Source of the DNA: Halpernia humi
GTDB lineage: Bacteria; Bacteroidota; Bacteroidia; Flavobacteriales; Weeksellaceae
NCBI RefSeq assembly: GCF_900108025.1
Contig: NZ_FNUS01000002.1
Location: forward strand, 310,001 to 374,000
Direction of reading: 5' to 3'
Length of the DNA stretch: 64,000 bases
The translations under genes were made by a program, and so were the position numbers. Under the pieces are notes generated by a model, which was not told the origin of the DNA, did not search any database, and was given only the letters and a program-made list of their open reading frames with translations. Below, piece after piece: positions 41,831-64,000 of the stretch (its first letter is position 1; every line of letters starts with the position of its first letter).

Positions 41831-41838
41831 TATCTTTG
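41831..41838 (+). promoter_or_regulatory. -7 element before the first HYC gene
   Basis: TATCTTTG at 41831-41838, 9 bases before the ATG at 41848. The same box with the same following bases (TA) stands before the second copy at 61991-61998. Confidence 0.5.
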
Positions 41839-41847
41839 TACAACCTC

Positions 41848-42225
41848 ATGAAAAAGTATTTAGCAATAATGTTCACAGTTTTCTATTTCGGATTTTCATC
41901 CGGAATGGTTTATAATGTCCATTATTGTATGGATAAGGTTTTTACATCGTTTTCAAATTCCACCAACACCTGCGGACTCTGTGGTAAAAAGAAGATGAAA
42001 GACTGCTGCAAAGACCAGGTTAAAGTTTTAAAAACAGATACCGCGCAGAAGGCAGATATTTCTTTTATTGCTGATGCACCTTTTGCAGCCATTATTCCGC
42101 AAGTTTTCTATGCAGATTTTTTACTGCCTGTTTTAGAGCGCAATCAATTTTCGATTTTGGTAAATGCGCCACCCGATAGGCCCGAATTACCGCTCTTCAT
42201 TTCCTACTGTAATTTTAGAATTTAA
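41848..42225 (+). CDS. HYC_CC_PP family protein, first copy
   Basis: 125 residues from ATG at 41848. A signal peptide or N-terminal hydrophobic segment (MKKYLAIMFTVFYFGFSSG) is followed by the HYC motif (NVHYCMDK), a Cys cluster CGLCGKKKMKDCCKD (about 44-58) and the PP motif (NAPPDRPELP) near the end, the three marks naming the family. The role is not known; its place in this cluster argues for metal handling in the periplasm. It is followed by a DUF3347 gene. A second copy lies at 62013. Confidence 0.85.
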   Translation: MKKYLAIMFTVFYFGFSSGMVYNVHYCMDKVFTSFSNSTNTCGLCGKKKMKDCCKDQVKVLKTDTAQKADISFIADAPFAAIIPQVFYADFLLPVLERNQFSILVNAPPDRPELPLFISYCNFRI

Positions 42226-42317
42226 AATATAGACCTCATTTTTCTTTTGAAGAATGACGATTAATCATGTCCAGAATTTTGGACTTCCCTTATTTTAAAA
42301 TATCTAAAATTATTACA

Positions 42318-42785
42318 ATGAAAAAATTAATTTTCACCGCACTATTCTCAATATTTTCAGTTTTTACTTTATCAGCACAAGCAACTGATGCCTCAATTTC
42401 CAAACTTTATCAAAACTATATCAGCATCAAAGACGCCTTGGTAACAGACAATTCCGATGGTGCTTCAAAAGCCGCAAACGAGTTTATAAAATCTGCTTCT
42501 ATGGTAGATTATAAAGTTTTGTCTGAAGGAAATCTGGACGTTCTTCGAAAAGATGCATCCACCATTGCAGAAAGCAGAAGTATAGAAACCCAGCGGGAAT
42601 CTTTCGCAAAATTATCTGCAAATATGATTGCTGTGGCCAAAAACTTTAAATTGGCAGATTCTGTTTTCGTTCTCTATTGTCCAATGCAGGACGCTTCTTG
42701 GTTAAGCGAACAAAAGGAAATTAAAAATCCTTTTTACGGTAGTGCGATGCTTACTTGCGGAAGCGTGAAGTCTGAATTAAAATAA
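42318..42785 (+). CDS. DUF3347 protein, first copy of the HYC-linked type
   Basis: 155 residues from the ATG at 42318, which opens the signal peptide (to LSAQ). The DUF3347 domain fills the rest: repeated helical text with SKLYQNYISIKDALVTDNSDGASKAA at the start and ending in YCPM, SWLSEQKEIKNPFYGSAMLTCGSV. The Cys in YCPM and TCG and the adjacent Met residues are conserved in all five copies in this window and are likely metal ligands (inference). Located between the HYC and oxidase genes. Nearly identical in plan to the copy at 62491. Confidence 0.88.
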   Translation: MKKLIFTALFSIFSVFTLSAQATDASISKLYQNYISIKDALVTDNSDGASKAANEFIKSASMVDYKVLSEGNLDVLRKDASTIAESRSIETQRESFAKLSANMIAVAKNFKLADSVFVLYCPMQDASWLSEQKEIKNPFYGSAMLTCGSVKSELK

Positions 42786-52481: not shown

Positions 52482-52886
52482 ATGAAAAATTTAATCTTTG
52501 GAATAATGGCAATATTTGCGTTATTCTTAACCTCTTGCAAAAAATCTGAAACTGCAACGCCTGCAAAAACGGAAATGGCTTCTGCAAGTAACGAGCAACC
52601 AAAAGTTGGAGATATTGTACCCAACGAAAAAGTCTGTATGGTAAATAATGCCTATATGGGCAAAAAACAATTAGAAGTAAAATATAACGGAAAAACATAC
52701 TACGGCTGTTGTGCAGATTGCCAGAAAAAAATCCCGACAGATGAAACTGCGAGAACAGCCTACGATCCGATTTCCAAAAATCCTGTAGATAAATCAGTGG
52801 CAATAATTGCAAAATCTGATGAAAATGATGCAGTACTTTATTTTGAAAATGAAGCCAATTATAAAGAATATTTTCAGAAAAATTAG
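52482..52886 (+). CDS. TRASH/YHS-like Cys-rich lipoprotein, complete copy
   Basis: 134 residues with a lipoprotein signal (LFLTSC, Cys 19). The core is KVCMVNNAYMGKKQLEVKYNGKTYYGCCADCQKKIP, where VCMVNN, GKTYYGCCADC reads like a TRASH/YHS metal-binding finger (C...C-C-x-x-C). The C-terminal part (SVAIIAKSDENDAVLYFENEANYKEYF) is typical of YHS-like sets. It could carry Cu in the periplasm. A truncated near-identical copy lies at 61634-61897. Confidence 0.75.
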   Translation: MKNLIFGIMAIFALFLTSCKKSETATPAKTEMASASNEQPKVGDIVPNEKVCMVNNAYMGKKQLEVKYNGKTYYGCCADCQKKIPTDETARTAYDPISKNPVDKSVAIIAKSDENDAVLYFENEANYKEYFQKN

Positions 52887-53493: not shown

Positions 53494-56400
53494 ATGTTAG
53501 ATAAAATAGTAAAATATTTTTTAGAAAATAGATTAGTCACCATCCTAATTCTTGCCATCCTAATCGTTTGGGGAATTGCAACTTCACCTTTTGACTGGAA
53601 ACTGCCTTTTATTCCTTCGGATCCCGTTTCTGTGGATGCGATTCCAGATATTGGTGAAAATCAGCAGATTATTTTTACGCAATGGCAGGGAAGATCGCCG
53701 CAAGATGTGGAAGATCAAATCTCTTATCCTTTGACGACTTATCTCTTGGGGATTCCGGGTGTAAAATCCATTCGAAGCAATTCTATGTTTGGATTTTCGA
53801 GCATTTATATCATTTTTGATGACAGTGTAGAATTTTATTGGTCTAGAACACGGATTTTAGAAAAAATAAGTTCTTTGCCGAGCAACTTATTGCCCGATGG
53901 CGTGAATCCAACATTAGGTCCAGATGCAACGGCGTTGGGACAAGTATATTGGTACACGATTGAGGGTCGGGACAAAGACGGCAATCCAACTGGTGGTTGG
54001 GATTTACAGGAAATCAGGACAGCGCAGGATTATTATGTAAAATATGGATTAAATGCCGTCCAAGGCGTTTCTGAAGTCGCCTCAATCGGTGGTTATATTA
54101 AAGAATATCAGGTTGATGTAAATCCAGATGCTTTGAAAGCCTACAATATTAGTTTGATGCAGGTGATGACCGCCGTTCAAAAATCAAATAAAGATGTTGG
54201 CGCAAAAACCATAGAAATAAATCAGGCAGAATATTTGGTGAGAGGTCTTGGTTATGTAAAAAAAGTGGGCGACATTGAACAGGCTGTTGTTGCAGTTAAA
54301 GATAATGTTCCGATTCGGGTGAAAGATATCGGTGTCGTTAATTTAGGGCCGGCAACACGGCGTGGTGTTTTAGATAAAGGTGGCGCAGAAGCCGTTGGTG
54401 GTGTTGTGATTGCACGTTACGGTTCAAACCCTTTACAAGTAATTAATGGTGTAAAATCAAAAATTAATGAAATTGCTTCAGGTTTGCCTAAAAAAACTTT
54501 GGCAGATGGCACGGTAAGTCAGTTGACAATTGTTCCATTTTATGATAGAACGGCATTAATTCACGAAACCATCGGCACTTTGCAAACGGCACTTTCTCAT
54601 GAGGTTTTAATAAGCATCATTGTTGTTTTAATTTTAGTTTTAAATCTTCGTGCGTCGTTAATAATTTCAGGATTATTGCCGGTCGGCGTTTTAATCACAT
54701 TTATTGTGATGCGTTACGCAGGCGTCGATGCCAATGTTGTGGCTTTGTCTGGAATCGCTATTGCCATTGGGGTAATGATCGACGTCGGGATTATTTTCGT
54801 GGAAAATATTATAAGGCATCTGGAGATGCCGGAAAATCACGGCGTAAAAGGCAAGGAATTATTGAACGTTATTTATGACGCAACCACGGAAGTTGTTTCG
54901 GCGATTACAACTGCTTTGGCAACGACGATCGTGAGTTTTATTCCAGTTTTTGCAATGCAATCTGCGGAAGGAAAACTATTCAGACCTTTGGCTTTTACCA
55001 AAAGTTTCGCGCTTTTAGCCTCATTTATTTTAGGTTTGGTGGTTTTGCCTACTTTATCTTACTTCATTTTTGGGGTTAATTATAATAAAAAACGCGTACG
55101 AAGGTTTTGGTCTTTCGTATTTATTTCCGGCGGAATTTTATTGAGTATTTACTTTAAAATGTGGCTTCCTTTAGCCTTAACATTGATTGGTTTATACGAC
55201 TTGTTGAATCACAAAATCCCTGAAAAATACCACCATTACACCAAACATTTTAATTTAGTCGTCTTATTATTTATTGTTTCTTATTTCTTAACCGAAGAAT
55301 GGATGCCTTTGGGTGTGCAAACCAGTATTTTCGGAAATTATATTTTCATCATTGTACTTTTAGGAATTATACTTTTTGCCTTGTTAAGCATTGTAAACAC
55401 TTATGAAAGAACGCTTCGCTGGTGTTTAAAAAATAAGGGAAAGTTTATGCTGATTCCTTTGTTTACCTTACTTTTTGGGGTAATGATTTGGATCGGTTTT
55501 GCCACAACATTTGGCTTCGTCGCAAAAGGCTTTAATAAATTGGGTTGGAATATCCAGGAATCTAAAGTGTGGACAGTTCCTTCAAAAACGTTCCCCGGAA
55601 TTGGATCAGAATTTATGCCGACACTTAATGAGGGAAGTTATTTATTAATGCCAACTTCAATGCCACACGCAGGAATTGAGCAAAACCGAAAAGTGGTCGG
55701 GCAGATTGATATGATTGTCAGCCAAATTCCGGAAGTAGATATGTCCGTCGGTAAATTGGGCAGGGTAGATAGCCCGATCGATCCCGCGCCGATTTCAATG
55801 TATGAAAATATGATTGAGTATAAACCTGAATTTATATTGGATGGAAATGGACATCGAATGAGGTTCAAAACCGATAATAAAGGAAGATTTGTCACAAAAT
55901 CTGGCGATAGTCTGACGCACGAAAATGCTTTAAAAGAACATATTTCCATTAAAAATTTAATTGCAGATAAAGACGGAAAATATTACAGAAACTGGCGGGA
56001 TATGATTCATTCACCAGATGATATTTGGAATGAAATTGTGAAAGCCACAAAAATTCCAGGTGTGACTTCAGCGCCAAAACTGCAACCGATTCAGACTCGT
56101 TTGGTAATGCTTCAAACCGGGATGCGTTCACCGATGGGAATTAAAGTTTTCGGACCGGATTTAAAAACAATTCAGGATTTTGGTTTAAAATTAGAAAGCA
56201 TTCTGAAAACTGTTCCTTCAGTAAAAAAAGACGCCGTTTTCGCCGATAGAATCGTGGGCAAACCTTATTTGAATTTAAATATTGACCGTGAAAAAATCGG
56301 GCGTTATGGTTTAAATATAGAAGATATTCAGCAGGCGATAGAAACTTCCATCGGTGGAATGAAAGTATCTTCCACCGTTGAAGGCAGAGAGCGTTATCCG

Positions 56401-57327
56401 ATCAGAATCCGTTATCCACGGGAATTGCGGGACAGCCCGGAAACTTTGGCTAAAATTTTAGTTTCAACGCCATCCGGCGCGCAAATTCCGCTCGGGCAAT
56501 TGGTGAGTTTTGAATATAAACAAGGCCCACAATCCATTAAAAGTGAAGATACATTTTTAGTCGGTTTTGTTTTATTTGATAAAAATGAAAGTTTTGCGGA
56601 AGTAGATGTGGTGAATGATGCCCAAAAAGCGATTCAGACAAAAATTGATTCGGGCGAATTAAAAGTACCGCAAGGAATTAGTTATAAATTTTCCGGGACT
56701 TATGAAAATCAAATTAGAGCGATGAAACGCCTATCAATCGTAATTCCAATTTGTTTATTGGCCATTTTCCTCATTTTATATTTTCAGTTTAAAACTTTAA
56801 TTGCCTCAACTATTCACTTTTCGGGTGTGTTTGTGGCTTTTGCGGGCGGATTTATAATGCTTTGGCTCTATTCACAAGGTTGGTTCCTGAATTTTTCTGT
56901 TGGAGACGTTAATATGCGGGATTTATTTCAGATCCATCCGATAAATTTAAGTGTCGCAGTTTGGGTCGGTTTTATCGCTCTATTTGGTATTGCGACGAAC
57001 GACGGCGTAATTATGGGAACCTACATCCATCAGGTTTTTGAAAGAAAAAATCCGCAAACGGTTTTAGCAGTTAGAGAAGCCGTGGTGCAAGCCGGAAAAC
57101 AAAGAGTTCGGCCTGCAATGATGACCGCCGCAGTCGCGATTATTGCGCTGCTTCCCGTCTTAACTTCCACCGGAAAAGGGTCGGAAATTATGATTCCGAT
57201 GGCAATTCCCACTTTTGGCGGAATGACAATCCAGATTATGACGATGTTCGTAGTGCCGGTCTTGCAAGCCTATTGGAGAGAAACGGTTATTAAAAATCAG
57301 TTAAAAAAAGAAAGAAGAAATGCGTAA
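53494..57327 (+). CDS. cusA: CusA/CzcA family heavy-metal efflux RND transporter
   Basis: 1277 residues, larger than the usual about 1040, because of an insertion with extra hydrophobic segments (about 530-650; for example FVFISGGILLSIYFKMWLPLALT) before the TM7 region, as in other Bacteroidota members. Marks include GIAIAIGVMIDVG (TM4, about 419-431) with the proton-path Asp, EFMPTLNEGSYLLMP (about 706-720), typical of the metal-exporting subfamily, ATNDGVIMGTYIHQ (about 1167), and VRPAMMTAAVAI. Its adaptor and outer membrane partner follow in overlapping or close frames, so the system is cusACB. Cu+/Ag+ as substrate follows from the copper setting, with Zn, Co or Cd not ruled out. Confidence 0.93.
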   Translation: MLDKIVKYFLENRLVTILILAILIVWGIATSPFDWKLPFIPSDPVSVDAIPDIGENQQIIFTQWQGRSPQDVEDQISYPLTTYLLGIPGVKSIRSNSMFGFSSIYIIFDDSVEFYWSRTRILEKISSLPSNLLPDGVNPTLGPDATALGQVYWYTIEGRDKDGNPTGGWDLQEIRTAQDYYVKYGLNAVQGVSEVASIGGYIKEYQVDVNPDALKAYNISLMQVMTAVQKSNKDVGAKTIEINQAEYLVRGLGYVKKVGDIEQAVVAVKDNVPIRVKDIGVVNLGPATRRGVLDKGGAEAVGGVVIARYGSNPLQVINGVKSKINEIASGLPKKTLADGTVSQLTIVPFYDRTALIHETIGTLQTALSHEVLISIIVVLILVLNLRASLIISGLLPVGVLITFIVMRYAGVDANVVALSGIAIAIGVMIDVGIIFVENIIRHLEMPENHGVKGKELLNVIYDATTEVVSAITTALATTIVSFIPVFAMQSAEGKLFRPLAFTKSFALLASFILGLVVLPTLSYFIFGVNYNKKRVRRFWSFVFISGGILLSIYFKMWLPLALTLIGLYDLLNHKIPEKYHHYTKHFNLVVLLFIVSYFLTEEWMPLGVQTSIFGNYIFIIVLLGIILFALLSIVNTYERTLRWCLKNKGKFMLIPLFTLLFGVMIWIGFATTFGFVAKGFNKLGWNIQESKVWTVPSKTFPGIGSEFMPTLNEGSYLLMPTSMPHAGIEQNRKVVGQIDMIVSQIPEVDMSVGKLGRVDSPIDPAPISMYENMIEYKPEFILDGNGHRMRFKTDNKGRFVTKSGDSLTHENALKEHISIKNLIADKDGKYYRNWRDMIHSPDDIWNEIVKATKIPGVTSAPKLQPIQTRLVMLQTGMRSPMGIKVFGPDLKTIQDFGLKLESILKTVPSVKKDAVFADRIVGKPYLNLNIDREKIGRYGLNIEDIQQAIETSIGGMKVSSTVEGRERYPIRIRYPRELRDSPETLAKILVSTPSGAQIPLGQLVSFEYKQGPQSIKSEDTFLVGFVLFDKNESFAEVDVVNDAQKAIQTKIDSGELKVPQGISYKFSGTYENQIRAMKRLSIVIPICLLAIFLILYFQFKTLIASTIHFSGVFVAFAGGFIMLWLYSQGWFLNFSVGDVNMRDLFQIHPINLSVAVWVGFIALFGIATNDGVIMGTYIHQVFERKNPQTVLAVREAVVQAGKQRVRPAMMTAAVAIIALLPVLTSTGKGSEIMIPMAIPTFGGMTIQIMTMFVVPVLQAYWRETVIKNQLKKERRNA

Positions 57328-58540
57328 AATATTAATATTATCGGTTTTAATTTTTGCTTACACTGCAAAATCGCAGTCTATCAATGATTATTATAAAATC
57401 GCGGCGGAAAATAATCCGGAATTAAAGGCAAAATACAAAGAGTTTGAATCTGCGATGCAAAGAATTCCACAAGTGAGTTCTTTGCCGGATCCAAATCTTT
57501 CTATCGGTTATTTTATTTCCCCGGTGGAAACCAGAGTTGGTCCGCAAAATTTGAAGTTTTCGCTTTCGCAGATGTTTCCTTGGTTTGGAACTTTGAAAGC
57601 ACAGAAAAACGCTGCAAGTTTAATGGCAGAAAGTAAATTTCAGACTTTTTTAAATACTAAAAATCAGATTTATTCGCAAGTCGCTTCGGCTTATTATCCG
57701 CTTTATGAATTGCAACATTTGCAGGAAATAGAGCAGGAAAATATTAAGATTTTGGAGTCTTATAAAAGAATTGCCAATGCAAAATTATCTAATAGCAGGG
57801 GAAATGTAGTTGATGTTTTGCGCGTGGACATTATGATAAAAGATGCAGAAACCAATTTGAAAATTTTGAAAGCAAAAGAACCTGCCTTAACTTCTTGGTT
57901 AAACAGCATTTTAAATAGAAGATTTGATGAAAAAGTTGTTATTTCAAAAGATTTACAAATCATTGATTTGCCATTAGAATATCGAAAAGATTCTATCGCA
58001 AAAAATCCTTTGTTACAAGAAATTGAATTAAAAAAACAATCTTCTGGTGCTTCAATAGAAGTTGCGAAAAGACAAGGTTTGCCGAAAATCGGTCTTGGTT
58101 TGGATTACGTGGTTGTCGGAACAGGAATGAATAATTTTTCAAATTCTGGAAAAGATGCGATAATGCCAATGTTGACGGTAAGTTTACCCATTTTCCGAAA
58201 AAAATATGACGCAGCCGTTAAAGAAGCAGAATTAATGCAGGACAGTTATTCACTTCAAAAAGAAGCGCTGGAAAACAAATTGAACGGTAATTATTATAAA
58301 CTTCTTTTTGAACTGGAAAAAGAAAAAGATTTATTAGAATTATATGATAATCAGGTAAAAACGCTGAATAAAAGTCTAGATATTCAATACGCCTATTATA
58401 GCAACGCAAGTTTAGATTTCGTAGAATTATTGCGGATGCAGCAGGAACTTTTAAAATATCAGAAATTGAAATTGGCAAGTATCAGTACGTATTATATGAA
58501 ATTGGCTGAATTGGATTATTTAACAGCGAAACAATTTTAA
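57320..58540 (+). CDS. cusC: TolC family outer membrane efflux protein
   Basis: 406 residues with a signal peptide (to AKSQ) and the alpha-helical coiled coils typical of TolC-like channels (QKNAASLMAESKFQTFLNTKNQIYSQVASAYYPLYELQ, EKEKDLLELYDNQVKTLNKSL). It forms the outer membrane duct of the RND system. It overlaps cusA by 8 bases and is 2 bases before the adaptor gene, so all three are one transcript. Confidence 0.9.
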   Translation: MRKILILSVLIFAYTAKSQSINDYYKIAAENNPELKAKYKEFESAMQRIPQVSSLPDPNLSIGYFISPVETRVGPQNLKFSLSQMFPWFGTLKAQKNAASLMAESKFQTFLNTKNQIYSQVASAYYPLYELQHLQEIEQENIKILESYKRIANAKLSNSRGNVVDVLRVDIMIKDAETNLKILKAKEPALTSWLNSILNRRFDEKVVISKDLQIIDLPLEYRKDSIAKNPLLQEIELKKQSSGASIEVAKRQGLPKIGLGLDYVVVGTGMNNFSNSGKDAIMPMLTVSLPIFRKKYDAAVKEAELMQDSYSLQKEALENKLNGNYYKLLFELEKEKDLLELYDNQVKTLNKSLDIQYAYYSNASLDFVELLRMQQELLKYQKLKLASISTYYMKLAELDYLTAKQF

Positions 58541-58542
58541 AA

Positions 58543-60297
58543 ATGAAAAATTTAGACAGAAGAACAAAAATATTACTGGTTGTTTCCCTTTTGGTAGGCT
58601 TACTTTTAGGTGCGTTATTTTTCGGTGGAAGTTCTAAAACAGAAGAAACTACCGTAAAATCTACCACAGAAACTAAAAAAGCGGAAGTGTGGACATGTTC
58701 TATGCATCCACAAATCAGACAGTCCGGACCGGGACATTGCCCGATTTGCGGAATGGATTTAATTCCATTAGAATCATCAGATAATCTCGTCGATCCAGAC
58801 GCTATCACAATGTCGCCATCTGCAATGATTTTAGCCGGAATTTCGACGTACAGAGTTGGTTTTTCAGATGGAATAAAAGATATTCCATTAAATGGAAAAA
58901 TTGAAGTAAACGACAAAAAAGTGTACAGCCAATCGTCCCATATTCCTGGTCGGATAGAAAAAATTCAGGTGACTTATGAAGGCGAATATGTGCAGAAAGG
59001 CCAGTTGGTGGCAAACGTTTATTCACCGGAATTATCCAGCGCACAGCAGGAATTATTGGAAGCCTATTCTGTAAAAGATATGCAGCCGCAGTTGTACCAA
59101 TCTGTGCGGACAAAATTAAAAAACTGGAAAATTTCTGACGCTTCCATTAATGCCATTATTTCTTCTAGAAAAATTCGGGAATCTTTCCCAATTTTCGCAG
59201 ATGTTTCAGGTTATGTGGTGAAAAAAAATGTTGAGTTGGGCGATTATGTGCAGCGAGGACAAACATTATTTGATGTGGCAGATTTATCTTCGGTTTGGGT
59301 TTTATTTGAAATTTATGAATCGGATATGAATTGGATTAAAAAGGGAGATGTCGTTAATTATACCGTCGCTTCTTTGCCAGGTGAAAAATTTTCTGGCAGA
59401 ATATCCTTTATTGACCCATTCATCAATCCAACCACAAGAGTGGCGAATGCTCGTGTTGAAATTTCAAATCCCGGATTAAAATTTAAACCCGCGATGTTTG
59501 TTTCCGGAAATGTTGAGGCAAAAATTGCAAGCAACAAAGCCATTATTAGCGTGCCAAAAACCGCCGTGATGTGGACGGGAAAACGTTCCGTGGTATATGT
59601 TCAAACCAATACAGATAAAGGCTCATCTTTCAAATTACGCGAAGTAACGTTAGGACCGCAATTGGGAGACGATTACATCATCCAAGACGGTTTATCTGCA
59701 GGTGAAGAAGTGGTAGAAAACGGAACTTTTAATGTTGATGCGGCCGCGCAATTAGCGGGAAAACCAAGTATGATGAATCAAAAAGAGGAAGTGAAAGGTC
59801 ACACCGTTGATACCGACAAAGTAGTTTTAAAAAATGATAAAGTAGCGGATAATGCAGAAATTAATAAAAATCTGCAACCACTTTACAGAAATTATTTTGC
59901 TTTGACAGATGCTTTGACTAAAGATGATTTTAGTAGGGCTAAAGTGGCGCTTCTAAAATTTGATAAAGAAATTGCCCAAGTCGATAGTCAAGTTTTTTCT
60001 ACAAGTTCCTTAAAAGTTTGGAATAATTATAAAAGTAAACTAAACAACGAGACGAAATATGCCGTGAAATTGAAAGATATTGAAAAATTAAGAACAAAGT
60101 TTGAAGCAATCGCTAACGTGATGATTGATTTAACAAAAGCCTTCAAACCACTGGATGAAAGCACTTACGTTCAATTCTGCCCGATGGCAAATAACAACAA
60201 AGGCGCAACCTGGTTAAGCGATAAAAAAGAAATTGTAAATCCTTATCTCGGTAAGAAAATGCTGACTTGCGGTAGTACAAAACAAGTTTTAAAATAA
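58543..60297 (+). CDS. cusB: RND periplasmic adaptor (CusB type) with HMBD and C-terminal DUF3347
   Basis: 584 residues. After an N-terminal transmembrane anchor (KILLVVSLLVGLLLGALFF) comes a Cys/Met/His-rich heavy-metal binding module, [25 protein letters not shown] (about 50-74). The adaptor core (about 95-430) has the lipoyl/barrel-sandwich halves (PGRIEKIQVTYEGEYVQKGQLVANVYSPEL) and the beta-barrel region. The C-terminal about 140 residues are a DUF3347 domain ending FCPMANNNKGATWLSDKKEIVNPYLG and MLTCG. The fusion of adaptor with DUF3347 ties this domain directly to copper efflux. Follows cusC by 2 bases. Confidence 0.93.
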   Translation: MKNLDRRTKILLVVSLLVGLLLGALFFGGSSKTEETTVKSTTETKKAEVWTCSMHPQIRQSGPGHCPICGMDLIPLESSDNLVDPDAITMSPSAMILAGISTYRVGFSDGIKDIPLNGKIEVNDKKVYSQSSHIPGRIEKIQVTYEGEYVQKGQLVANVYSPELSSAQQELLEAYSVKDMQPQLYQSVRTKLKNWKISDASINAIISSRKIRESFPIFADVSGYVVKKNVELGDYVQRGQTLFDVADLSSVWVLFEIYESDMNWIKKGDVVNYTVASLPGEKFSGRISFIDPFINPTTRVANARVEISNPGLKFKPAMFVSGNVEAKIASNKAIISVPKTAVMWTGKRSVVYVQTNTDKGSSFKLREVTLGPQLGDDYIIQDGLSAGEEVVENGTFNVDAAAQLAGKPSMMNQKEEVKGHTVDTDKVVLKNDKVADNAEINKNLQPLYRNYFALTDALTKDDFSRAKVALLKFDKEIAQVDSQVFSTSSLKVWNNYKSKLNNETKYAVKLKDIEKLRTKFEAIANVMIDLTKAFKPLDESTYVQFCPMANNNKGATWLSDKKEIVNPYLGKKMLTCGSTKQVLK

Positions 60298-60395: not shown

Positions 60396-61643
60396 ATGAA
60401 TAATCTTTCTCAAATAATCCACCAATATAAAGCCGATAGCGAAAGTGTTTACAATACTTGGTTTATAGAAAATGACGAAAGATTAAAAGCCTTCCGTACC
60501 ATTAGACGTGGCGTTTTGCAGGTGATAGAAGATATTAAAAACAAAACTTTCCCCAATGATTTTAAAGGAAGTAGTTTAGAATTTGTATTGAGTTGCATCG
60601 CGGAACAAAAACAGGTTTTTGTCGGTATTTCCCATCCGTTTTACTGGAAGCCAAAATTAAGGATTCCCGATATTTATGAAAATCAGAATAACAAGATCGC
60701 CTTTGGACAATTTCTGGAAAACTGCATCAACGCAAAATCCGAAGAACAGGCTTTAAAAGAAATAGTAAAATTAGATGAACTCAAAATAAAAGGACTTGGT
60801 CCCGCAGTTGGAAGTATTTTGTATTTCCTGCATCCAACGTGGTTTCCGCCATTTAATACGGCGATTCTTAACGGGTTTAATTATCTTTTTAATGACAAAA
60901 AGAAATTGGGAAGTTGGACGGAATATTTAAAGATCAGGGAAATTTTAAAGCAAACCAATATTAAACACAAGGATGAACTTTCGAATGATTTGGGCGCGAT
61001 CGCAGGATTGTGTTTTGAGGTTGGTTCGCAGAAAATGTTGATTGGAAATGATGAATATTTAAGTGAAATAGAACGCACAAAATTTGAAAAAAATATTCTT
61101 AAAAGGCAAAAAGAAAATCAGGAAGAAAAATTAGCAGAAAATCTACACGATGAGATGCAATACCATTTGCTTAAGATTGGAATTTCTCTCGGTTTTGACG
61201 TTACGCCTGCAAGTAATGATAAGAGCAAATCTTTTGGCGGGCAAAGTTTTTCCTTTATTTCCCTCAATAAATTTCCTGAACTCAATTGTGATAAGGAAAC
61301 ACAAAATACCATTAAATTAATAGATGTTTTGTGGTTTAAAAAAGGAACCAACAAAATTATCGGTGCGTTCGAAGTCGAAAAAAGCACGAGCATTTATTCT
61401 GGAATTTTGCGTCTGTCAGATTTGTATTTCAGTATTTCCGATGGTGAAGAAGTTTTTTATATTATAATTCCGAACAGCCGGGAAAAAGACGTCATACAGC
61501 AATTAAATAGACCATCGATAAAAAATTCAAAAATTATCATTAAATACATCCTTTTTACGGAATTAAAAACCAACTGCGACGCCATCTGCAAATTCGGAAC
61601 CGACCATTCTATAATGGACAAAATAGCAAAATCATGTTTTTAG
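60396..61643 (+). CDS. Putative two-domain nuclease, HhH-like N-terminus and PD-(D/E)xK-like C-terminus
   Basis: 415 residues, not recognised by family. Residues about 128-155 (LKIKGLGPAVGSILYFLHPTW, then PPFNT) look like a helix-hairpin-helix glycosylase-type turn. The C-terminal half holds LIDVLWFKKG (about 308) and GAFEVEKSTSIYSGILRLSDL (about 323-343), a possible PD-(D/E)xK core (D, then E-V-E-K), followed by a hydrophobic strand (VFYIIIPNSRE). It could be a type II restriction-like nuclease without its methylase, or a related factor. It stands alone in the copper cluster, about 100 bases after cusB, and its end overlaps a truncated copy of the TRASH/YHS gene. Confidence 0.5.
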   Translation: MNNLSQIIHQYKADSESVYNTWFIENDERLKAFRTIRRGVLQVIEDIKNKTFPNDFKGSSLEFVLSCIAEQKQVFVGISHPFYWKPKLRIPDIYENQNNKIAFGQFLENCINAKSEEQALKEIVKLDELKIKGLGPAVGSILYFLHPTWFPPFNTAILNGFNYLFNDKKKLGSWTEYLKIREILKQTNIKHKDELSNDLGAIAGLCFEVGSQKMLIGNDEYLSEIERTKFEKNILKRQKENQEEKLAENLHDEMQYHLLKIGISLGFDVTPASNDKSKSFGGQSFSFISLNKFPELNCDKETQNTIKLIDVLWFKKGTNKIIGAFEVEKSTSIYSGILRLSDLYFSISDGEEVFYIIIPNSREKDVIQQLNRPSIKNSKIIIKYILFTELKTNCDAICKFGTDHSIMDKIAKSCF

Positions 61644-61897
61644 GCTTTATGGTAAACAATGCCTATATGGGCAAAAAACAGTTAGAAGTAAAATATGACG
61701 GAAAAACGTACTACGGCTGTTGCGCAGATTGCCAGAAAAAAGTCCCGACAGAAGAAACTGCAAGAACAGCATACGATCCAATTTCTAAAAAACCCGTGGA
61801 TAAATCATTAGCCATTATTGCTAAATCTGACGAAAACGATGCCGTAGTTTATTTTGAAAATGAAACAAATTATAAGGAATATTTTCAGAAAAATTAG
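61634..61897 (+). pseudogene. Truncated copy of the TRASH/YHS-like gene
   Basis: The 87-residue frame matches residues about 52 to the end of the complete protein at 52482 (from MVNNAYMGKK on, with few changes such as VPTEET for IPTDET), but lacks the lipoprotein signal and the first Cys box. The remaining TYYGCCADCQKK finger is intact. An in-frame ATG at 61634 or 61649 may allow a cytoplasmic short protein. The left half was apparently replaced when the nuclease-like gene came in; the similarity starts inside the end of that gene. Confidence 0.65.
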
Positions 61898-61990
61898 AGT
61901 TAAAATGTCAATTAATTACTACTATATCTTGTTAAATTAAAAAACTGATATTTATTACTTTTCGTATGTTAATTATACATTCAGTTTCAA

Positions 61991-61998
61991 GTATCTTT
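61991..61998 (+). promoter_or_regulatory. -7 element before the second HYC gene
   Basis: TATCTTTG, identical to the box before the first copy at 41831. Confidence 0.5.
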
Positions 61999-62012
61999 GT
62001 AAAAATTTTCTA

Positions 62013-62390
62013 TTGAAAAAATTTCTAATCATATTGCTCACTTTCTTCTATTTCGGGACTTCTTCCGGGATGGTTTACAAGTTGCACCAATGTTTTGAAA
62101 ATATTTCAATATATGCGGGGAACTCGAATGAGAACTGTCCGCTTTGTAAAACTAAAAAGAAAGGAGATTGCTGTAAAACAACGTTTAAAATAGTTAAGAC
62201 AGATCCTGCGCATCACGCCGATCTTCTGAAAATTGATTTCTTAAAATATCGTGCTTTACTTCCTGAAACAGTTTATTTAAATCCTCTTTTTCAAAAGTCT
62301 CTTGCGTACGATTCTTCGGTTCTTATCAACGCACCGCCTAATTTTAGGGGAGTTGCTCTTTTCATTAGCCATTGTAATTTTAGAATTTAG
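62013..62390 (+). CDS. HYC_CC_PP family protein, second copy
   Basis: 125 residues from a TTG start at 62013. Same plan as 41848: signal or anchor (FLIILLTFFYFGTSSG), HQC in place of HYC (KLHQCFEN), Cys cluster CPLCKTKKKGDCCK, and a late NAPPNFRG. The change of HYC to HQC, and other substitutions, show divergence from the first copy. Followed by a DUF3347 gene as in the first block. Confidence 0.82.
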   Translation: MKKFLIILLTFFYFGTSSGMVYKLHQCFENISIYAGNSNENCPLCKTKKKGDCCKTTFKIVKTDPAHHADLLKIDFLKYRALLPETVYLNPLFQKSLAYDSSVLINAPPNFRGVALFISHCNFRI

Positions 62391-62490
62391 AATTTATTGC
62401 ATCCTTTTTTTTATTTAAAGGATGAAAAGTCATGTCTTGGAATTCTATTTCCAACAATTATTTAATTCAAAAAATCTAAAATTTATTATA

Positions 62491-62961
62491 ATGAAAAAAT
62501 TAATTTTCACATCCGTATTATCCATATTTTCAATTTTTAATTTATCTGCTCAAACAAATGATGCGTCTATTTCAAAATTGTATCAAAATTATTTAAGTAT
62601 CACAACTGCATTAACAGCAGATAACTCCAACGAAGCCTCAAAAAATGCAGACTTATTTTTAAAGTCTGCCGCAATGGTAGATTACAAAGTTTTATCTGAA
62701 GGTAATCTCGATATTTTGCGAACAGATGCTACCAAAATCGCAGAAAGCCGAAGCATTGAAACCCAAAGAGAATCTTTTGGTAAACTTTCAAAAAATATGA
62801 TCTGGTTAACCAAAAAATTTAAACTGGCAGATGAATCTGTATTTATAATGTATTGCCCAATGGTTGATGCAAGTTGGTTAAGTGCAGAAAAAGTAGTTAA
62901 AAATCCTTTCTACGGCAGTTCTATGCTTTCTTGTGGAAGTGTAAAATCTGAAATTAAATAA
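62491..62961 (+). CDS. DUF3347 protein, second copy of the HYC-linked type
   Basis: 156 residues from the ATG at 62491, signal peptide to LSAQ. It is the paralogue of 42318 (shared DASISKLYQNY, MVDYKVLSEGNLDILR and ESRSIETQRESF), with the closing [26 protein letters not shown]; the TCG motif is changed to SCG. It lies between HYC copy 2 and oxidase copy 2, with 2 bases to the oxidase start. Confidence 0.88.
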   Translation: MKKLIFTSVLSIFSIFNLSAQTNDASISKLYQNYLSITTALTADNSNEASKNADLFLKSAAMVDYKVLSEGNLDILRTDATKIAESRSIETQRESFGKLSKNMIWLTKKFKLADESVFIMYCPMVDASWLSAEKVVKNPFYGSSMLSCGSVKSEIK

Positions 62962-62963
62962 TT

Positions 62964-64000
62964 ATGAATAATTATAAACGATATATTTTTAAAGCATTTG
63001 CGCTCTTGTATTTACTTTTTTATGTAAATGGATATTCTCAAGAAATGAAAATGTCTGAAAATAAAGCAGTAAAAAATAGTAACGATACCCAAGTTTCTTT
63101 CGGTGGAAAAACAGTGCGCTATGATTTATATGTAAGAGATACCCTTGTTACTTTTAATGGACATACGAGTCGTGCAATCTTCACAAATGGCAAATTACAG
63201 GCGCCAACTCTTTATTTTACAGAAGGAGATACGGCTGAAATATATTTGCATAATCAGTTAAAAAAAGAAAATACCGGTTTGCACTGGCACGGAGTGATAT
63301 TGCCCAATGAGATGGACGGCGTTCCGTATTTAACTACAAAAGAGGTAAAACCTGGAGAAACCCATCTTTATAAATTTAAAATTTCCCAAAACGGCACCTA
63401 TTGGTATCATTCTCATGAAGGCACGCAGGAACAGATCGGGATGAATGGGATTTTGGTTTTCAAGAAAAGGGAAAGTCAGCCAGAAACAGTTTTTGCAGCG
63501 GATATTCCTGTTTTGTTGGGAGATTGGGCAGCCAAAAATCCTAACCAGATTATGCGAAGACTTCACATGGACCAAACAGATTGGTACGCCATCAAAAAAG
63601 GTACTGTGCAAAGTTATTCTGAAGCCATTGGAAAAGGACATTTTAAAACAAAACTTCTAAACGAGTGGAAAAGAATGGAAGCGATGGATGTGAGTGATGT
63701 TTATTACAATAATTTTCTTATTAATGGTGAAATTTCTTCGGATTATAAAAATCTAAAAGCCGGTGATAAAGTTAGGCTCCGTGTCGCCAATGGTGCATCC
63801 TCTTCTTATTTTTGGTTAAATTATGGTGGCGGGAAAATCACAGTTATCGGAAGTGATGGTAATGAAGTAGAACCGGTAGAAGTAGATCGATTAATTGTGG
63901 GCGTTTCGGAATCTTATGATATTGAAGTGACTGTTCCTGAAAACAAAAGTTTTGAATTCCGCGCGACGTCGGAAGACAGACAGGGTCATGCTTCACTTTA
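62964..64000 (+). CDS. Multicopper oxidase, second copy (3' end cut by window edge)
   Basis: ATG at 62964; the frame is open to the right edge (345 residues). Signal peptide (to GYSQ), then the first two cupredoxin domains with HWHG (about 107-110) and WYHSHEGTQEQ (about 150-160). WYHSH and later FRATSEDRQ parallel the first copy at 43031. Third-domain motifs (HPMHLHGH, HCHILYH) and any barrel domain lie beyond 64,000. The third block of the repeated HYC - DUF3347 - oxidase set. Confidence 0.9.
   Translation, partial: MNNYKRYIFKAFALLYLLFYVNGYSQEMKMSENKAVKNSNDTQVSFGGKTVRYDLYVRDTLVTFNGHTSRAIFTNGKLQAPTLYFTEGDTAEIYLHNQLKKENTGLHWHGVILPNEMDGVPYLTTKEVKPGETHLYKFKISQNGTYWYHSHEGTQEQIGMNGILVFKKRESQPETVFAADIPVLLGDWAAKNPNQIMRRLHMDQTDWYAIKKGTVQSYSEAIGKGHFKTKLLNEWKRMEAMDVSDVYYNNFLINGEISSDYKNLKAGDKVRLRVANGASSSYFWLNYGGGKITVIGSDGNEVEPVEVDRLIVGVSESYDIEVTVPENKSFEFRATSEDRQGHASL

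Follow-up and report, generated by a model that had tools for sequence, protein, structure and literature searches.

A two-part nuclease-like protein family that includes CopL recurs in bacterial copper-resistance clusters

Toward one end of a 64,000-nucleotide stretch of the Halpernia humi genome (contig NZ_FNUS01000002.1, positions 310,001 to 374,000; hereafter the window), a copper cluster includes a gene for a nuclease-like protein of 415 residues (Table 1). The block of pump and adaptor genes (53494..60297, +) stops 98 bp before this gene and lies on the same strand. An intact TRASH/YHS gene precedes the block, and a truncated copy of it follows the nuclease gene. Farther downstream lies a cassette whose multicopper oxidase, named by eye and by its position beside genes of like order, runs past the end of the window. 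The pair formed by the small ORF and the DUF3347 gene occurs twice in the window (41836-42785 and 62013-62961), with 74% DNA identity between the two. In the sequence beyond the window (L272, window coordinates 65690-79916), ArsR/arsenic, CzcA/CzcB, ZIP, and Zn/Cd ATPase-like genes were recognized by eye, and the larger metal-resistance island composed of window positions 41000-64000 and this continuation ends, also by eye, near an integrase-like ORF at about 79230.

Table 1. Features of the copper cluster and of the nuclease-like gene, in window coordinates
Feature	Coordinates	Strand	Basis
Intact TRASH/YHS gene (reference copy)	52482..52886	+	ORF; Pfam matches below cut-off
CusA-type RND pump	53494-57327	+	ORF/profile
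Outer-membrane factor	57320-58540	+	ORF/profile
CusB-type adaptor with HMBD and DUF3347	58543-60297	+	ORF/profile
Two-domain nuclease-like gene (CopL-type family), 415 aa	60396..61643	+	ORF; full-length homologues
N-terminal domain, residues 1-215, HhH-GPD (8-oxoguanine glycosylase-like) fold in model	60396..61040	+	AF2, Foldseek, VIA
Candidate ligand/lesion loop, residues 77-95	60624..60680	+	H80...E95 stretch invariant in 116/116; low pLDDT at 77-86
HhH motif and following loop, residues 131-157	60786..60866	+	Sequence
C-terminal restriction-endonuclease-fold domain (predicted), residues 239-415	61110..61643	+	VIA on model; PADLOC
Putative active site, D310 (61323) ... E326-V-E328 (61371-61379)	61323..61379	+	Conservation
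Join, nuclease-gene end to middle of TRASH/YHS gene	61634..61642	+	Relatives' ends; TRASH homology start at 61642
Truncated TRASH/YHS copy, 87-aa ORF	61634..61897	+	ORF; alignment to copy at 52482
Downstream cassette: small ORF (62013), DUF3347 (62422), multicopper oxidase (62964)	61985..63998	+	

The earlier note on this DNA had described the short TRASH copy as lacking its front part and as beginning inside the end of the nuclease gene, with a common join, and both observations hold: the two ORFs overlap, and approximately the first 50 codons of the copy are gone, with Cys19 among the losses. Codons 6-87 of the truncated ORF correspond to codons 53-134 of the intact gene at 91% in protein, and the DNA match covers 241 of 276 positions, beginning at 61642; Cys52 of the intact gene is replaced by Phe. 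Matches to the YHS/TRASH Pfam models are below the cut-off for both copies. Over the 82 common codons there are 17 silent differences and 7 residue changes, so that the second copy probably still functioned as a gene until it was truncated.

The nuclease gene itself was shortened little at the junction. The 80 relatives kept for comparison align with it as far as residue 408-414, and their C-termini read K/S/T followed by I/V/T in 60 of the 80 and CF in none, so that in the window protein, which ends in AKS-CF-stop, the join falls within the Ser413 codon (61632-61634) or immediately behind it. The truncated copy looks like a local junction scar. Among 197 genomes drawn from the taxonomic family, 71 have a TRASH/YHS match, and a start at codon 53 occurs only in the window's own second copy; thus, no island with the same truncation and without the nuclease was seen in this set. 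A true empty site for the island was not found in related genomes, and a blastn comparison of the end of the window with small flanks returned no match.

Judging from its sequence, the 415-residue protein belongs to an uncharacterized two-part nuclease-like family of roughly constant length. Pfam, NCBIfam, and PHROGs have no match for it, although the homologue on the plasmid pMOL30 has one weak match in PHROGs (E 0.2), and searches of PDB sequences returned chance matches only. Names such as Pyruv_OxRed_insertion, SPC22, and PRK09751, returned for other family members, were below the cut-off and make no sense. Following tblastn, 95 genome loci were obtained and 80 were kept, with 57-89% identity to the window protein. 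Relatives occur in 179 of 72,556 plasmid records, 169 of them aligning over at least 80% of the length and 171 at below 60% identity. No relative was found in phage records or in viral contigs, the viral scan using short exact peptide patterns, which distant relatives could escape.

Broader draws of genomes add to this picture. In the Pseudomonadota, 15 of 398 drawn genomes match the family profile and yield 16 full-length loci (the centre genome, a known carrier, included). In the Bacteroidota, the profile matches 25 of 395. Fifteen of these carry a full-length copy, counting that of the window, and 10 match in the C-terminal domain only; the matches confined to the C-terminal domain number 11, one of them in a genome that also has a full-length copy, and 9 of the 11 were fetched and examined. 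Conservation was counted over 116 homologue rows, with second-sample rows L178, L206, and L207 (repeats) and L205 omitted and the repeat L193 kept. The tree omits 35 of the 116 rows, mostly near-duplicates, and deep placements in it are unsure owing to long branches (L090, L088, and others).

With marker proteins as tblastn queries, a metal-resistance marker was found near 71 of the 80 genome loci (a copper-specific marker at 63, a P1B-type ATPase at 54), and in all 71 the nearest marker is co-oriented with the nuclease gene, at a median gap of 146 bp and within 300 bp in 49. One locus counted as marker-less, L058, opens by eye with the tail of a P-type ATPase. Gene maps of 21 loci show a variable order around a constant nuclease, which may lie between the ATPase and the oxidase, behind CusB, or behind DUF3347 and haem-binding genes. 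Repair genes are immediate or close neighbors at four of the nine marker-less loci (RecC/RecB; MutS and UmuC; a RadA-like gene; a DinG-like helicase). This observation, made post hoc, is a hint at most and was set aside as proof, as the same six queries matched at 0 of 31 loci of a second sample and at 1 of 40 random regions.

Because the first 80 loci had been gathered by close similarity to the window gene, that second sample was drawn: 31 full-length loci from the Pseudomonadota and Bacteroidota draws, four of which also belong to the first set. Copper-specific markers accompany 19 of the 31 (16 of 27 without the four overlaps), and a copper-specific marker or an ATPase accompanies 21. In random regions of the same genomes the corresponding counts are 0/40 for copper-specific markers and 2/40 for the ATPase, and at the loci with the C-terminal domain only they are 0/9 and 2/9. 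Fisher's test of 19/31 versus 0/40 gives p = 1.6e-9, with relatedness ignored and rows that are not independent. Ten of the 31 lack copper-specific markers and ATPase alike; CusB is present at one of them, and some of these loci have metal-related neighbors by eye. In the tree, a clade of nine copies (from Nitrospirota, Calditrichota, Gammaproteobacteria, and Geothermobacter) is without copper context, and copper-context copies occupy most deep branches. The "copper" label on the tree is the analysts' own and covers rows with a pump or ATPase marker alone; rows L190 and L203, labelled "none," have metal-like neighbors by eye.

Plasmids tell a similar story. Copper or heavy-metal resistance genes are present in all of the first eight regions opened, which come from the pMOL30 cop cluster, Enterococcus, Listeria, Mucilaginibacter, Leptolyngbya, Streptomyces, Deinococcus, and Sphingomonas. 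With 14 more regions added, metal-resistance genes are present in 18 of 21 annotated regions, some of the 18 being counted on a P-type ATPase or DUF305 alone; those without are from Methylocystis, Paraburkholderia (where the record edge falls on one side), and Pseudarthrobacter, and the Methylorubrum region is unannotated. These 22 regions, out of 179 records, were chosen to cover different genera and are not a random sample. Copper-cluster relatives occur in at least six phyla (Bacteroidota, Bacillota, Cyanobacteriota, Actinomycetota, Deinococcota, and Pseudomonadota). The linkage is thus recurrent, close, co-oriented, and beyond chance, if not a property of every copy, and family members often form part of the copper-resistance clusters of bacteria. 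The varying company of a mobile passenger was not found: copper company recurs, a minority of copies lie elsewhere, and many are on plasmids.

The earlier note had read an HhH-like turn in the N-terminal part of the protein and a D...EVEK pattern resembling a PD-(D/E)xK core in the C-terminal part, and structural models are in keeping with both. The whole-protein model has a pLDDT of 84.6 and a pTM of 0.56; modelled alone with AF2, the N-terminal domain, which carries the turn at residues 131-157 and is of HhH type in the models, has a pLDDT of 86.6 and a pTM of 0.85. The best Foldseek match of this domain is 3knt (MjOgg; probability 0.96, E 0.11). VIA aligns it with MjOgg at Z 7.6 (168 aligned residues, rmsd 4.0) and aligns residues 3-213 of the whole-protein model with this 8-oxoguanine glycosylase at Z 7.5, scores in a range (7-8) that the aligner's own note calls middling; 47 of the 50 rows listed by VIA for the domain are HhH-GPD glycosylases. 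Pfam PF00730 does not match the protein, and hhalign of the domain against Nth and MutY of the same genome returned probabilities of 0.2 and 1.1%, no real match, so that the HhH-GPD assignment is a structural one.

In the model, residues 1-213 resemble archaeal Ogg2 (MjOgg, SsOgg) and other HhH-GPD glycosylases, from which the family differs in having no Pfam match, in a conserved loop of its own, and in its catalytic positions. The loop includes the stretch H80-x-F-x-W-K-P-K-x-R-I-P-D-I-Y-E95, invariant in 116 of 116 homologues. With the register set by eye on the motif against Nth and MutY of the same genome, the position of the usual catalytic Lys is Ala137 (115/116) and that of the usual catalytic Asp is Asn154 (116/116). 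Neither the Asp expected of a glycosylase nor the Lys of the bifunctional enzymes was found, and the models suggest for the N-terminal half an HhH-GPD-like domain in which both residues are missing.

The C-terminal half is predicted to be a restriction-type nuclease with a D...ExE active site (D310 ... E326-V-E328-K329). VIA aligns residues 239-415 with 2p14, the small subunit of R.BspD6I, at Z 8.2 (140 aligned, rmsd 4.0), with N.BspD6I at Z 8.1, and with FokI at Z 7.1, scores in or near the same middling range, and PADLOC matches residues 250-380 to REase_II at E 6e-7. Residues D310, E326, and E328 are invariant in all 116 homologues, which on sequence grounds argues for a working nuclease. 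The likeness to the PD-(D/E)xK domains of FokI and R.BspD6I extends to both predicted fold and acidic core, as in a type II restriction enzyme; the family differs from them in its other N-terminal domain, in having no recognized partner methylase, and in having ExE instead of D/ExK. ExE is also found in BamHI.

The sole named member of the family that was found is CopL. The homologue on pMOL30, 421 residues long and 40% identical to the window protein, lies between copQ/copH and copO/copF, where the literature has copL, and is by this gene order CopL (Rmet_6120) of Cupriavidus metallidurans CH34, record versions differing in coordinates; full-length homology and position in a copper cluster agree on its membership. 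In the passages available, PMC11647585 gives the pMOL30 order as copHQ; copL; copOFGJ, and PMC9045368 gives copL as Rmet_6120. Passages of PMC7563307 describe CopL as a "cys-rich cytosolic protein" and report that copL, like one other cop1 gene, was not up-regulated under acute copper exposure, that it has its own promoter carrying a motif common to the majority of cop genes, and that its antisense transcript is induced by copper. In passages of PMC11647585, copL is among the cop genes with both sense and antisense signals up under a multi-metal challenge, and as far as these passages go the two reports conflict. The copL of Xanthomonas, in the portion of PMC9973294 available, was taken to be another protein and set apart without comparison. 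Portions of PMC8478169, PMC6669625, PMC2858755, and PMC10140301 hold nothing on the family, and the open-licence text of PMC, which leaves subscription papers and the original pMOL30 studies outside its scope, yielded no paper describing it as a nuclease in copper clusters.

CopL also typifies one branch of the family. It has a CxCC motif at residues 110-113 and His at position 329, both lacking in the window protein. The motif is present in 11 of the 116 homologues (L089, L094-L096, and L186-L192, from pMOL30, Sphingomonas, Streptomyces, Deinococcus, and others), and His replaces Lys at 329 in exactly those 11. From this pattern in the sequences, CxCC and His329 are a possible metal site.

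The earlier note had seen no partner methylase, and the wider survey agrees. None was recognized by eye among the window ORFs, and none is annotated as a DNA methylase in the 21 annotated plasmid regions, for which the PLSDB gene table is incomplete. Unspecified methyltransferases are annotated in regions L089, L094, L277, and L278; that of L277 has no Pfam match at E 0.01. Two methylase queries matched at 0/80 and 0/31 loci, a weak test as they matched only themselves anywhere. From these annotated regions and queries, the cognate methyltransferase expected beside a type II restriction-modification gene was not found. Public annotation nevertheless names many homologues "type II restriction endonuclease."

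The nuclease domain occurs in other settings as well. At L214 (8460-9539), a relative adjoins by eye a C5-methylase-like gene and likely forms a true restriction system; at L210 (8891-10006), a relative with a weak, sub-threshold EVE-domain match has a large methylase-like neighbor by eye and is likewise probably restriction. Three Bacteroidota genomes (L212 8618-9541, L215 8631-9560, L216 8953-9882) have the domain in a protein of 307-309 residues, whose genes adjoin by eye queC- and queF-like genes of the 7-deazaguanine pathway, a different partnership. On a Hymenobacter plasmid (L284 9285-10481), an Mrr-type restriction gene (Mrr_cat, E 5e-9) follows directly behind the nuclease gene in a copper cluster.

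The earlier note had proposed a passenger gene that came in separately, beside or within the second TRASH copy and cutting it, perhaps as part of a defence or mobile unit, an account for which the truncation at the end of the nuclease gene speaks. The gene's restricted distribution speaks for it as well: in 149 genomes searched (the organism's own included), the same taxonomic family has no other full-length copy, only two weak partial matches, and a full-length copy occurs in three genomes of another family (f3, the window genome being f1). This account does not stand well against the wider evidence and is now very improbable, as relatives lie within copper clusters at most loci, co-oriented and close, in at least six phyla, and as the window gene nests in the tree among Flavobacterium copper-cluster copies, pairing with that of Flavobacterium profundi (support 100/94). 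It is therefore more likely that the gene travelled with the cluster.

The sequence from 61985 on, which begins just past the truncated TRASH gene, matches a cassette of sister genome G001 (small ORF-DUF3347-DUF305-oxidase); this genome is without the nuclease gene, and five flank genes of its cassette have no match in the window. Of the two small ORF-DUF3347 pairs in the window, the second (62013-62961) is the closer to the G001 cassette, at 75% versus 68%. The simplest account of the window's history is that the copper cluster and its nuclease were probably acquired from a Flavobacterium-like donor, that they joined a resident small ORF-DUF3347-oxidase cassette, and that a deletion or illegitimate junction would have joined the 3' end of the nuclease gene to the interior of the second TRASH gene, in whatever order these events occurred.

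What the protein does within such clusters is a separate question. An intact nuclease core, a base-inspecting fold without excision chemistry, and retention in copper clusters together fit an enzyme that incises damaged DNA, and our best guess, with a probability of about 0.4, is that the protein is a nuclease processing DNA that copper stress has damaged; the folds are predicted, and activity and substrate are inferred. Its more specific form, an inspector derived from 8-oxoguanine glycosylase, fused to a nuclease and dedicated in copper clusters to incising DNA damaged by copper or reactive oxygen species, is offered tentatively. Chief among the rivals is a restriction-type enzyme acting on its own, either modification-dependent or a type II enzyme without a methylase, that guards the metal element or its host from foreign DNA, its link to copper reflecting shared mobile elements. 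The nuclease domain is indeed related to restriction enzymes, relatives with the C-terminal domain only adjoin methylase-like genes at two of nine loci (L214 and L210, by eye), and both the public annotation and the 179 plasmid records point the same way. The lack of annotated DNA methylases and of matches to the weak queries weighs somewhat against it. A defence gene need not sit co-oriented some 150 bp from copper genes in successive phyla, and the C-terminal-domain relatives show no copper-specific link, so that this explanation appears rather unlikely.

A less probable alternative, and a decidedly doubtful one, is a non-cleaving regulator or copper-responsive DNA-binding protein in which the nuclease fold is reused on the DNA of the cop cluster, perhaps with Cu(I) sensed by the CxCC of one branch. 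The coupling of CxCC with His329 in that branch is in keeping with such a role, but the motif is absent from the other 105 rows, and the three putative catalytic acids are invariant throughout, unlike those of a dead nuclease.

For the favored damage-processing nuclease, a mechanism can be sketched. Excess copper would damage DNA; the glycosylase-like domain, having lost the Lys and Asp of base excision, would recognize damaged or distorted bases but leave them in place; and the nuclease joined to it would cut the DNA at such a base so that repair could follow. The gene would travel with the efflux and oxidase genes because all of them meet the same stress.

Copper resistance is usually attributed to efflux, oxidation, and sequestration. 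A nuclease within the copper clusters of six phyla suggests a DNA-directed function absent from current models of copper resistance, and the database label "type II restriction endonuclease" may mislead for this family. CopL, so far a "cys-rich cytosolic protein" in the passages of literature available, gains a testable role. An enzyme that protects DNA may be a standard component of bacterial copper defence and, if so, DNA repair would be a hitherto unrecognized, horizontally transferred arm of metal resistance.
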